From contig NZ_JAELXW010000001.1 of the NCBI RefSeq assembly GCF_016428645.1, positions 124,001 to 188,000 on the forward strand: 64,000 nt of DNA, written 5' to 3'. This DNA is from Glycomyces salinus. Its GTDB lineage: Bacteria; Actinomycetota; Actinomycetes; Mycobacteriales; Micromonosporaceae. Shown in pieces: positions 46,602 to 49,732 of the stretch (positions are counted from its first letter, which is position 1; each line of letters starts with the position of its first letter). Position numbers and translations under genes: made by a program. Under the pieces are notes generated by a model that searched no databases, was not told where the DNA came from, and worked only from the letters and a program-made list of their open reading frames with translations.

Positions 46602-47942
46602 TCACATCAGCGGGCCGAGCACGAAGGCGGCGATGGAGAAGTACAGGACCAGACCGGTCGCGTCGCACAGGGTCGAGACCATCGGCGCCGAGATGACGGC
46701 CGGGTCGATGCGGACCTTCCTGGCGATCAGCGGTAGGAAGGCCCCGACGAAGGTCGACCAGGTGCAGATCGTCAGCAGCGTCAGGGCGATGACGAGGCCG
46801 ATGTCGGGCCCGTAGAAGACGGCGACCAGAGGCCCGCCGACGATCGCGAGCATCGCCCCGAGCAGCACTCCCACCCGGCCCTCGCGCCAGATGATCCTGA
46901 TCGTGTCGGAGAAGCGGACCTCGCCGACGGCCATGGCGCGGATGATGACCGCCGATGCCTGGGAGCCGGAGTTACCGCCCACGCCGGTCAGCAGCGAGAT
47001 GAACACCGCCAGGACCGTGACCTCCTCCAGGGCGGCCTCGTAGTAGTTGAGCACCGAGACCGTCAGCGTCCCGGCCAGGCCCAGCAGGAGCAGCCACACC
47101 GCGCGCTTGCGGGCCAGAATGAACACCCCGGCCGACAGGTAGGGGCGCTCGAGCGGCTCGGAACCGCCGGACAGGGCCGCGTCCTCGGTGTCCTCGGCCT
47201 CCAGGACCTCCATCGCGTCGTCGAAGGTGATCAGGCCGACCAGGCGGTCCTCGTGGTCGACGACGGGCAGGGCGGCCAGGTTGGCCTCCTGGATCAGGCG
47301 CGCGGCCTCCTCCTGGTCGGTGTCGGTGCGGACCTGGTGGTGGTCCTCGGCCATGAGCGAGGCGACCTCCGAGTCCGGGTCGGCGGCGACCAGGTCGGGC
47401 AGGGCCACCGTGCCCAGCAGCTTGCGGTGCCCGTCGGTGACCGGGAGGACGTCCAGGTGGCGGGGGCGTTCCCGCAGGTGCCTGATGCGCTCGATCGCGG
47501 CGGCGGCGCTCATAGAGGCGCGCAGCGAGACGTAGTCGGGGGTCATGATGCGCCCGGCCGACTCGGGGTCGTAGCCGAGGAGCCGGGCGGTGGAGATGCG
47601 CTCGGCCGGACTCAGCTGGGCCTGGAAGCGGGTGGCGACCATCGCGGGCATCTCGTCGAAGAGCTTGGCCCGGTCGTCGGCCTCCATGGAGTCGAGCAGG
47701 TCGCGGACGGTCTCGGTCTTGAGCGCGTCGAGCAGTTCCTGCTGGTGGACGGTGTCGAGTTCCTCGAAGACGGCGAGCGCGCGGTCCTTGGGGAGCAGCC
47801 GGAAGCGGACGGCCTGGTCGGCCAGGTCCACGCGGGGCAGCTCCTCTGCCAGTTCGACGGTCGAGGAATCGGCCAGTTCCAGGCGAAGGGCCGCCAGCTC
47901 GTCGACGGCCGCCGGGGAGATCGGGTGGATGGTCTGCGACAT
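46602..47942 (-). CDS. mgtE: Magnesium transporter MgtE
   Basis: 446-residue MgtE-type Mg2+ channel. An N-terminal MgtE domain (LLDSMEADDRAKLFDEMPAM), two CBS domains (MTPDYVSLRASMSAAAAIER and the second near 205-260) and a C-terminal five-helix pore with GVGGNSGSQASAVIIRAMA are present; in the family, Mg2+ binding to the N and CBS domains closes the channel. ATG 47942 follows AAGGAGG at 8 nt; GTG 47951 lies too close to the ribosome site. A leader ORF with acid and proline residues lies upstream. Confidence 0.95.
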   Translation of the reverse strand: MSQTIHPISPAAVDELAALRLELADSSTVELAEELPRVDLADQAVRFRLLPKDRALAVFEELDTVHQQELLDALKTETVRDLLDSMEADDRAKLFDEMPAMVATRFQAQLSPAERISTARLLGYDPESAGRIMTPDYVSLRASMSAAAAIERIRHLRERPRHLDVLPVTDGHRKLLGTVALPDLVAADPDSEVASLMAEDHHQVRTDTDQEEAARLIQEANLAALPVVDHEDRLVGLITFDDAMEVLEAEDTEDAALSGGSEPLERPYLSAGVFILARKRAVWLLLLGLAGTLTVSVLNYYEAALEEVTVLAVFISLLTGVGGNSGSQASAVIIRAMAVGEVRFSDTIRIIWREGRVGVLLGAMLAIVGGPLVAVFYGPDIGLVIALTLLTICTWSTFVGAFLPLIARKVRIDPAVISAPMVSTLCDATGLVLYFSIAAFVLGPLM

Positions 47943-48019
47943 CTCAGCCACCTCCTTACACGGGGTTGCTGCCGTGCCCGCCTGCGGTGGTGTGAAAGCC
48001 GCGGTCGAGGACGCCCGCC

Positions 48020-48106
48020 TCAGAATGCAAGGGGACGCGGGGCACGGTCATGAGCGAATGGGAAGAACTCGTCGGTATCTCGACTGGGACTGGGGTCGTC
48101 GCCCAC
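48020..48106 (-). CDS. Putative Mg2+-sensing leader peptide of mgtE (28 aa)
   Basis: GTG 48106 follows GAGGAGG at 8 nt, exactly the layout seen at mgtE itself. The peptide begins MGDDPSPSRDTDEFFPFA and continues HDRAPRPLAF, i.e. rich in Asp/Glu and Pro near the start. Such residues destabilise ribosomes at low Mg2+ in enterobacterial MgtL-type leaders, which resemble this one. It ends 77 nt before mgtE. The function is inference from sequence logic; the peptide may also be only a chance ORF. Confidence 0.6.
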   Translation of the reverse strand: MGDDPSPSRDTDEFFPFAHDRAPRPLAF

Positions 48107-48188
48107 TTCGCTCACCTCCTCAGGCCGTGCACCTCTCGGTGGCGTCTCTGGGCCCGTCGGGGCCCGTCTGCCGCGCTCAAGCGTAACA

Positions 48189-48217
48189 GCGGCACCGGCC
48201 CTTCGGGCCGGTGCCGC
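48189..48217 (-). terminator. 13-bp hairpin after gatB
   Basis: GCGGCACCGGCCC and GGGCCGGTGCCGC form a perfect 13-bp stem with a 3-nt loop, 28 nt after the gatB stop and just before the mgtE leader region. A minus-strand -10-like TACGCT follows and may start the mgtE transcript. A GGGCCC/GGGCCC hairpin (48148-48165) lies further on. Confidence 0.75.
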
Positions 48218-48244
48218 GTGGTGATTCGCTGTGGTTTCAGCCGC

Positions 48245-49732
48245 TCAGGTGAGTTTGTTCAGAATGAGTTCACGCACCGTCTTGGCGTCGGCCTGGCCCT
48301 TGGTGGTCTTCATGACCGCGCCGATGAGGGCCCCGGCGGCGGCGTGCTTGCCGCCGCGGATCTTCTCGGCGACGTCGGGGTTGGCCGCGATGGCCTCCTC
48401 GACGGCGGCCTCCAGCGCGCCGGTGTCGGAGACGACTTCGAGGCCGCGCGCGGCGGCGACTTCGGCCGGGCCGCCCTCGCCGGCCAGGACACCGTCGATG
48501 ACCTGGCGGGCCAGCTTGTCGTTGAGCTTGCCGTCCTCGACCATGCCCTGGAGCTCGGCCACCTGGGCCGGGGTGACGGCCAGGGCGCCGAGCTCGGCGC
48601 CGGTCTCGTTGGCGCGGCGCGAAAGCTCGCCCAACCACCACTTGACCGCGCCGGAGGCGCTGGTCCCGGCGGCGATGGTCGATTCGATCAGTTCGACCGC
48701 GTCGGCGTTGACCACCGACTGCATCTCCTTGTCGGCCAGGCCCCATTCGGCCTGGAGCCGCTCGCGGCGCTTGCGCGGCGGCTCGGGCAGCGAGGCGCGC
48801 AGCTCCTCGACCCATTCGCGGGAGGGCTCCATCACGGCCAGGTCGGGCTCGGGGAAGTACCGGTAGTCCGTCGCCTCCTCTTTGGAGCGTCCGGGGCTGG
48901 TCTCGCCGCTGGCCTCCTGGAAGTGGCGGGTCTCCTGGACGATCTTCTCGCCGCCGTCCAGCAGCGCGGACTGGCGCCGGACCTCGTAGCGGACGGCCCG
49001 CTCTACGCTGCGCAGCGAGTTGACGTTCTTGGTCTCGGTGCGGGTCCCCCAGGCGTCGCCGGGTTTGTTCAGCGAGAGGTTGACGTCGCAGCGCATCGAG
49101 CCCTGCTCCATGCGGACATCGGAGACGCCCAGGGAGCGGACGATGTCGCGCAGCTCGGTGGCGTAGGCGCGCGCGACCTCGGGAGCGAGCTCGGCGGTGC
49201 CGGCGACCGGCTTGGTGACGATCTCGACCAGCGGGATGCCGGCGCGGTTGTAGTCGACCAGGGACTCGGTCGCGCCGTGGATGCGGCCGGTGGCGCCTCC
49301 GACGTGGAGGGTCTTGCCGGTGTCCTCTTCGAGGTGGACGCGCTCGATCTCGACCCGGTAGGTCCGGCCGTCGACGGCCACGTCGACGTAGCCGTCCTCG
49401 CAGAGCGGCTCCTCGTACTGGGAGGTCTGGAAGTTCTTCGGCATGTCCGGGTAGAAGTAGTTCTTCCGGGCGAAGCGGGTCCATTCGGCGATGCGGCAGT
49501 TCAGGGCCAGGCCGATCTTGATGGTGGCCTCGATCGCGGCCCGGTTGGCCACCGGCAGGGCCCCGGGCAGCGCCAGGCACACCGGGCAGACCTGGGTGTT
49601 GGGCTCGGCGCCGAACTCGGTCGAGCAGCCGCAGAACATCTTGGTGTTCGTGTCGAGCTCGATGTGGGTCTCGAGCCCGAGGACGGGCTCGTAGGCGGCC
49701 ATCGCGGCCTCGTAGGTGTTGAGTTTCGTCAT
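48245..49732 (-). CDS. gatB: Asp/Glu-tRNA amidotransferase subunit B
   Basis: 495-residue GatB, the kinase-like subunit that activates misacylated Glu-tRNA-Gln or Asp-tRNA-Asn and binds tRNA through its C-terminal YqeY-like tail. [20 protein letters not shown] and [20 protein letters not shown] are the standard N-terminal signature, with the Cys zinc site (FCGCS, CPVC). Ends with a normal tail domain. It lies 5 nt after the gatA stop; third gene of gatC-gatA-gatB. Confidence 0.97.

Follow-up and report, generated by a model that had tools for sequence, protein, structure and literature searches.

Control of Mg2+ uptake by leader peptides that act through ribosome destabilization has been described for enterobacteria. 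According to the part of PMC11282234 that treats MgtL, ribosomes dissociate at low Mg2+ on negatively charged residues near the start of the peptide, and the Rho site before mgtA is inaccessible. The portion of PMC8092293 devoted to mgtQ of Salmonella describes an 8-codon ORF that precedes mgtB and is led by a strong AGGAGG; its residues Asp2 and Glu5 reduce translation of the ORF itself and, via alternative stem-loops, increase the expression of mgtB.

For Mycobacterium, the sections of PMC12810186 that concern upstream ORFs report that M-boxes control a conserved uORF2 (Rv1805A), which is called mycobacteria-specific and whose role is described as unclear; Rv0115A is an M-box-free homolog or paralog of Rv1805A. 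M-box leaders with uORF2 are shown there for pe20 and rv1535, mgtE-type M-boxes are placed elsewhere in Mycobacterium, and an M-box (ykoK, RF00380) is reported before mgtE in B. subtilis. The part of PMC11109978 that covers the mgtE motif finds it exclusively in Thioalkalivibrio.

The leader studied here precedes mgtE in Glycomyces salinus and lies in a window of 64,000 nucleotides, the whole stretch of DNA that was analyzed. It shares with mgtL and mgtQ, as portrayed in those portions, a short ORF before a Mg2+ transporter gene, acidic residues early in the peptide (Asp2 and Glu5 in mgtQ, EPDP in MgtL, Asp3-Asp4 in Glycomyces), and RNA pairings (candidate pairings in Glycomyces) that overlap or follow the ORF. 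Like them, the Glycomyces ORF (hereafter uORF) has its own ribosome site, is kept in relatives, and carries acidic and proline codons within its first few positions. The systems differ in phylum and transporter family (MgtE in Glycomyces); Asp3-Asp4-Pro5 is part of an ORF of 28–39 aa, whereas mgtQ has only 8 aa, and a candidate helix (H1) stands in place of the mgtQ stem-loop set 1:2, 2:3, and 3:4. The heads are too short to be aligned meaningfully, and convergence appears likelier than common descent.

With mycobacterial uORF2, as far as the cited sections describe it, the Glycomyces uORF has in common its own ribosome site, a position between the leader and a Mg2+-related gene, and a conserved N-terminal head with proline. 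It differs by the absence of an M-box, behind which the published Rv1805A (unlike Rv0115A) is located, and by its acidic DD head. Pro7, which those sections give as conserved in the mycobacterial peptides, is present only in the window and in two other loci (L003 and L016); 19 of the 22 genus loci are without it. The first-pass annotation of this DNA knew of no described example of such a leader. An M-box-free, acid-headed leader ORF before an actinobacterial mgtE was indeed not encountered in the full-text literature searched, a scope that leaves many subscription papers and bioRxiv outside, but mycobacterial M-box leaders that carry a conserved uORF2 are already in print (PMC12810186, in the sections cited above).

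A leader ORF upstream of mgtE in Glycomyces

All features of the locus are encoded on the minus strand. The gene order, as read from the ORF list and the sequences, comprises gatC-, gatA-, and gatB-like genes (names that we presume from their sequences), a GC-rich hairpin, the uORF, and mgtE. The 13-bp hairpin after gatB (48189..48217), evident by direct reading, perhaps marks the end of the gat transcript. Adjacent to it, 82 nt upstream of the uORF start, is a promoter-like sequence, TGTTACGCT (48180..48188). In 16 of the 22 genus loci, a T(G/T)NTANNCT block, which may function as a promoter, occurs 47–120 nt before the uORF; a scan with the sigma-70 consensus found no promoter match. The region between the promoter-like block and the uORF (48123–48172) has little similarity to other Glycomyces sequences (20-nt windows, identity 0 to 0.30), and the leader in the window seems to be longer at its 5' end than that of most Glycomyces.

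The first-pass annotation had described a leader peptide region at 47943–48115. The ORF is real; conservation in relatives puts its start at 48106, and it ends at 48020 (48020..48106; 28 codons plus stop; VGDDPSPSRDTDEFFPFAHDRAPRPLAF, with the GTG start read as Met). Direct reading gives GTG (48106), GGC GAC GAC CCC AGT CCC AGT CGA GAT and so on to TGA (end 48020), that is, 28 sense codons. The ORF list also contains a further in-frame GTG upstream (48115–48113), which overlaps the uORF ribosome site; GTG 48106 is the start that relatives retain. The ribosome site of the uORF (GGAGGT, 48114..48119), supported by direct reading and by the relatives, is separated from the GTG by 7 nt. The annotation had correctly noticed that this layout (GGAGGT, 7 nt, start codon) is identical to that of mgtE, where GGAGGT (47950..47955) is followed after 7 nt by ATG 47942.

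The mgtE gene itself (46602..47942) encodes 446 aa with MgtE_N, CBS, and MgtE domains (Pfam). In most relatives, its ribosome site is preceded by a CCUC that can pair with GAGG; the window has CCCC, with one mismatch. A pairing of CCACC (47990–47986) with GGTGG (47952–47948) had also been proposed. Both motifs are present in the window, but CCACC occurs in the uORF–mgtE spacer of just 3 of the 22 Glycomyces loci, and the pairing is therefore probably due to chance.

Conservation of the leader ORF

All 22 genus genomes examined contain mgtE, and each of their 23 mgtE loci (one genome has two mgtE contigs) is preceded by a GGAGGT-led ORF whose peptide begins with [MV]GDD. The start MGDD(P)..SRDT is shared by 22 of 22 genomes, and a less exact form of it is kept in two related genera of the same family (VNDDPGDSRGVDRFF in L031 and MGDDPGSSCDYQRFF in L032). 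Asp3 and Asp4 are present in all 22 genus loci and Pro5 in 21; of 24 rows, 23 encode Pro5 by CCC or CCT. The exception in both cases is L004. The separately initiated leader ORF with an early Asp-Asp-Pro start and without an M-box, as the annotation had recognized it, is thus a feature of Glycomyces and two related genera. Among the loci with 79–90% MgtE identity, 18 belong to Glycomyces and one to an Actinomycetes MAG (19 in total).

A search pattern consisting of the ribosome site and TGGGCGAYGAYYCY matched in 21 of the 22 genomes, always directly before mgtE, with two matches in the genome that has two mgtE contigs and a single match in each of the other 20. The reversed pattern, used as a control, gave 0 matches. 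The sole genome without a match (G006) has a longer spacer; its uORF is nonetheless recognizable by direct inspection. The printed upstream sequences of the two mgtE loci of the two-contig genome (G002; L021 on C13 and L024 on C31) look identical and possibly represent an assembly duplicate; L024, which appears identical to L021 of the same genome, was excluded from the alignments.

The mean pairwise identity among the 22 genus rows (20-nt windows) is 0.87–0.90 over 48122–48063, compared with 0.79–0.84 around the mgtE ribosome site and 0.74–0.79 at the first mgtE codons. The best-kept stretch of the intergenic region consists of the uORF ribosome site and about 14 codons. The absence of such an ORF from related mgtE 5' regions, which the first-pass annotation had named as evidence against a leader, did not materialize: the ORF was kept in 22 of 22. 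Because the start is kept throughout the genus, the pattern is confined to these sites, and substitutions are biased in frame (see below), the ORF exceeds what chance would produce. Judged by these alignments, the uORF is conserved across the genus and two neighboring genera.

Constraint on peptide and nucleotides

Alignment, codon usage, and a frame test delimit a conserved head, GDDPxxSRD (uORF codons 2–10; 48077..48103). The frame test, which counts differing codons among distinct rows (hence row pairs, not events) and excludes L004 with its in-frame insertion, compared 23 rows over codons 2–9. The ratio of synonymous to nonsynonymous differences was 63:57 in frame, whereas the two other frames gave 27:118 and 7:121. 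With the genus rows only, the ratios were 30:24 in frame versus 15:46 and 0:61 in the other frames. The restriction of coding-type substitutions to the reading frame indicates that the head of the uORF is kept as a peptide. Searches with nine uORF peptides against NCBIfam and with six against Pfam yielded no family above the cut-off and one sub-threshold match each.

The codons AGT CGA GAT are unchanged in all 22 genus rows. All three are rare in the window, where codon usage was determined from its own genes only (seven genes, 2958 codons): AGT accounts for 2.3% of Ser, CGA for 4.2% of Arg, and GAT for 7% of Asp. In many relatives, AGT CGA GAT is preceded by GGA and TCT, which are rare as well (8% of Gly and 0.6% of Ser, respectively). 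As read from these alignments, the uORF head is constrained in its nucleotides in addition to its peptide.

Complementarity between the uORF and the mgtE leader

The 3' half of the uORF varies in length and frame; the uORF comprises 28 to 39 codons across the genus, and the spacer between its stop and mgtE ranges from 49 to 100 nt. Within this region, 18 of the 22 genus loci have a CCGTG that starts at +59, counted from the uORF start codon (57, 58, 64, and 71 in the remainder). Its frame nevertheless varies, with three frames overall: L004, L005, and L007 depart from the other genus loci, as does L032 outside the genus. The counterpart of CCGTG is CACGG, which begins 34–36 nt upstream of the start of mgtE in 21 of the 22 loci; L005 has GCGCGG there. 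The complementarity kept between CCGTGCYC in the uORF and GRGCACGG before mgtE defines the two strands of H1, which were located in the window by alignment and pairing analysis: the 5' strand is CCGTGCCC (48040..48047, at +59) and the 3' strand GGGCACGG (47972..47979, with CACGG beginning 34 nt before the mgtE start codon).

Standard pairs make up 96.9% of H1 over 24 rows, and two pairs are changed on both sides (C-G, U-G, U-A); L032, whose probable 3' strand is located inside an insertion and is mis-columned, was retained in the alignment. Two further candidate hairpins could form. A small one, GTCG-CGAC, is 91.7% paired; the other, CCUC-GAGG at the ribosome site of mgtE, is 95.7% paired. In the pooled set of three helices, 95.3% of the cells are paired, compared with 32–52% in slid versions, and 29 of 500 shuffles reach this paired fraction as well as the count of cells with changes on both sides. 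The real values were reached by 215 of 500 shuffles for both-side-changed pairs, 109 of 500 for the covariation score, and 492 of 500 for further pair types. The covariation in H1 is weak, and the case for this candidate helix depends more on fixed geometry in a variable region.

Folding of the 24 rows with ribosome masks revealed no switch in the accessibility of the mgtE ribosome site, whose mean predicted unpaired fraction was 0.15 for free RNA, 0.14 with an early ribosome, 0.17 with a ribosome at the stop codon, and 0.17 with a ribosome on H1. The mean fraction of H1 in the predicted ensembles was 0.25 (free), 0.43 (early ribosome), 0.18 (at the stop), and 0 (on H1), with medians of 0.025, 0.34, 0.015, and 0; that is, the models predict H1 to be mostly unformed. 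Two other candidates picked by eye were discarded: an alternative CACG:CGUG pairing at the ribosome site of mgtE is broken in several relatives, which have CAUG or CGCG, and an anti-ribosome-site CCUC in the 3' half of the uORF is missing in at least L001, L003, L004, L005, L016, and L022.

Absence of the M-box

Neither the M-box (RF00380) nor any other Rfam family was detected in the window at the gathering score. At E values up to 10, the region 47900–48320 showed no M-box and five weak Rfam matches, all at the GC-rich hairpin. The genome to which the window belongs yielded 0 M-boxes, as did the 22 genus genomes in a search with stricter filters, where 4 of the 61 genomes searched had one; at the level of the class, M-boxes are present in 15 of 246 genomes. 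If the promoter-like block is a promoter, its distance of 47–120 nt from the uORF (16 of 22 loci) would be too short for a 169-nt aptamer. The M-box does occur before paralogous mgtE genes in two genomes of related genera in the same family (L048 and L049; full M-boxes with 102.8 and 102.9 bits), whereas it is absent from the Glycomyces leader. By eye, the M-boxes of L048 and L049 are followed by a hairpin with a T-rich tail and then by a separate uORF (MPGRSSRV... and VPGRSTTT...GDSSR), a tandem arrangement of M-box and uORF.

A possible ribosome-based Mg2+ sensor and its alternatives

The uORF very probably acts as a cis-regulatory element, a role that is well supported. Our main reading, to which we assign a probability of roughly 0.45, is that it represents a cis-acting leader peptide gene through which the ribosomes that translate it govern the expression of mgtE; their early drop-off at low Mg2+ would allow H1 to form and favor mgtE. 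With enough Mg2+, ribosomes would traverse the uORF and hold H1 open. At low Mg2+, they would slow down or dissociate at Asp3-Asp4-Pro5 and at the rare codons that follow, before reaching H1 at +59, and H1 would form. A ribosome stopped or lost at codons 3–10 should leave H1 intact, whereas reading past about codon 15, a limit derived from usual ribosome footprints, should melt it. In analogy to MgtL and MgtQ, the H1 state should favor mgtE, either by freeing its ribosome site or by denying Rho access to the spacer.

This reading is favored by the conservation of the uORF in all 22 genus genomes and the two related genera, the highest identity in the intergenic region, the coding-type substitutions in frame, the geometry of the H1 strands, the absence of an M-box, the published effects of early acidic codons in mgtQ and MgtL, and the acidic residues frequent in M-box-free uORFs elsewhere (see below). 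The lack of a switch in the folding results and the weak covariation count against it. Because folding with ribosome masks gave a flat response, the direction of the switch rests on analogy, and it is from the enterobacterial systems that we infer a Mg2+ response at all. The acid-head logic for Mg2+ is plausible, although not every uORF of the wider group (see below) has an acidic head, and those of g23 lack an early Pro. The interpretation put forward in the first-pass annotation is partly supported. If true, the occurrence of such a leader without an M-box, in a phylum remote from the enterobacteria, would point to the ribosome as a general gauge of Mg2+ that evolution has tapped more than once.

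The strict conservation of rare codons would also fit an element that operates mainly as RNA, in which the rare-codon block AGTCGAGATAC with its GTCG-CGAC hairpin and H1 carry the function, the peptide is of minor importance, and translation only opens or closes the RNA. AGT CGA GAT without synonymous change in 22 loci, the recurrence of in-frame AGT in distant lineages, and the pairing of the small hairpin (91.7%) are all in line with this explanation, but it is difficult to reconcile with synonymous changes that are favored in frame 0 only (including TCC or TCT versus AGT, all Ser, between genera) and with an AGT that is in frame in 18 of 23 uORFs yet off frame in only 2 and 0; we consider it unlikely. 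Less likely still is an attenuator-like sensor that relies not on acidic drop-off but on a delay in decoding, either at the early Pro codon (through m1G37 tRNA-Pro) or at Ser AGT. In mgtL, Pro-codon decoding is reportedly tied to m1G37 tRNA-Pro, which is made by the Mg2+-dependent TrmD. The CCC or CCT codon of Pro5 in 23 of 24 rows and the conserved AGT agree with such a sensor, whereas early Pro is missing from the g23 uORFs and serine supply has no evident link to MgtE.

A role of the uORF product as a micropeptide with a function in MgtE activity or assembly would fit the conserved N-terminal peptide, and the same has been proposed in print for mycobacterial uORF2 (Rv1805A; PMC12810186, in the sections on this ORF). 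We nevertheless regard it as very unlikely for Glycomyces, where the C-terminal half shifts frame in 3 of 22 genus loci and the length varies from 28 to 39 aa while the nucleotides CCGTG stay, and where no membrane segment is apparent in the peptide by eye. A similarly slim chance is given to a uORF that merely loads ribosomes or couples translation for constitutive expression of mgtE, with no sensor involved. Although the strong GGAGGT with a spacing equal to that of mgtE and the absence of a switch on folding would be expected in that case, the stop codon is located 49–100 nt before mgtE, which is far for simple coupling, and the fixed peptide head would be left unexplained.

AGT-marked leader ORFs in other Actinomycetota

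Leader ORFs elsewhere in the phylum were identified by a mechanical rule (GGAGGT, 5–9 nt, ATG or GTG, 15–60 aa, ORF end before mgtE) in 110 mgtE 5' regions of Actinomycetota outside Glycomyces (86 plus 24 from a list of 80 loci, of which only those from this group that the set did not yet contain were taken). The rule returned 23 uORFs in 22 of the 110 loci and none in the other 88, which makes the uORF a minority feature. An in-frame AGT within codons 2–16 is present in 18 of the 23 uORFs, compared with 2 and 0 of 23 in the other frames. The uORF of the window, with AGT at codons 6 and 8, falls into this grouping (made here) of GGAGGT-led ORFs with AGT in codons 2–16. AGT-uORFs precede some actinomycete mgtE genes both with and without an M-box.

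The heads of the uORFs found by the rule include MRSEPPS... (f8 g63 and f33), MRxRS[SP]xxD[AS][ED]PxHS (f34), and MDESPSSRG (Saccharomonospora); VADGDSSRR (g23) and MDESSSPGG (Nesterenkonia) are from outside the rule or the set. A uORF with the head VGDDPGSRSPG is located behind an M-box in a MAG of Nitriliruptoraceae. Among 28 M-box loci, a text motif identified the 3' end in 16 and none in 12, and the downstream region was read in the 16. Two of these (L194 and L195) are without a similar uORF, four (L198, L201, L202, and L203) were already in the set, and ten new loci were added, with uORFs such as MSPGDSPYP, MSSSDSPGR, and MSPGHSPR and with AGT at codon 6. M-box-linked uORFs of f8 g51, which we take to be Mycobacterium, start with MSPGDSP or MSSSDSP and likewise have AGT at codon 6.

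In a list of 43 uORFs chosen by eye from SD-led ORFs, and biased in that respect, in-frame AGT is present in 39; the AGT count obtained with the mechanical rule (above) repeats this one without choice by eye. An acidic residue in codons 2–5 occurs in 18 of the 20 uORFs on this list classed as M-box-free versus 12 of the 23 classed as M-box-linked, where L073 was classed as M-box-free via its scanned near-copy L072 and L078 as M-box-linked by eye (a partial M-box-like stretch; the scan at the gathering score gave no M-box). Reclassing L073 and L078 changes the counts to 19 of 21 and 11 of 22. Because the rows are mutually related, the difference represents a trend rather than a test.

The AGT-marked group, which is described here from sequence alone, overlaps partially with mycobacterial uORF2. 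It is conceivable, albeit rather doubtful, that these ORFs form an old, Actinomycetota-wide family in which an AGT-marked leader near an acidic or Pro head gates genes of Mg2+ and Mn2+ transporters, whether an M-box is present or not; in Glycomyces, which lacks the riboswitch, the ribosome would be the sole Mg2+ sensor via early drop-off at Asp-Asp-Pro and H1. If true, this would provide the orphan mycobacterial uORF2 with a function. The unexplained mycobacterial uORF2 can in any case be placed beside a wider group of uORFs, which suggests the testable idea that it is a cis-acting sensor rather than a working peptide.

AGT occurs two to four times within codons 2–16 of several M-box-linked uORFs (L189–L191, L196, L197, L199, L209, L210, L212, L216, and L255; for instance, AGT CCG AGT CCG AGT AGT in L255), a repetition that looks like a codon-level signal. 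Peptides of 18–19 aa with the head MRSEPPS precede mgtE in two families (L135 and L161 in f33; L143, L144, L154, and L226–L228 in f8 g63), with the variant head MHSEPPS in L228; the loci of this group have no M-box at the gathering score. In L081 (Saccharomonospora), CCGGGTGCC in the uORF is perfectly complementary to GGCACCCGG downstream, an H1-like geometry noticed by eye only.
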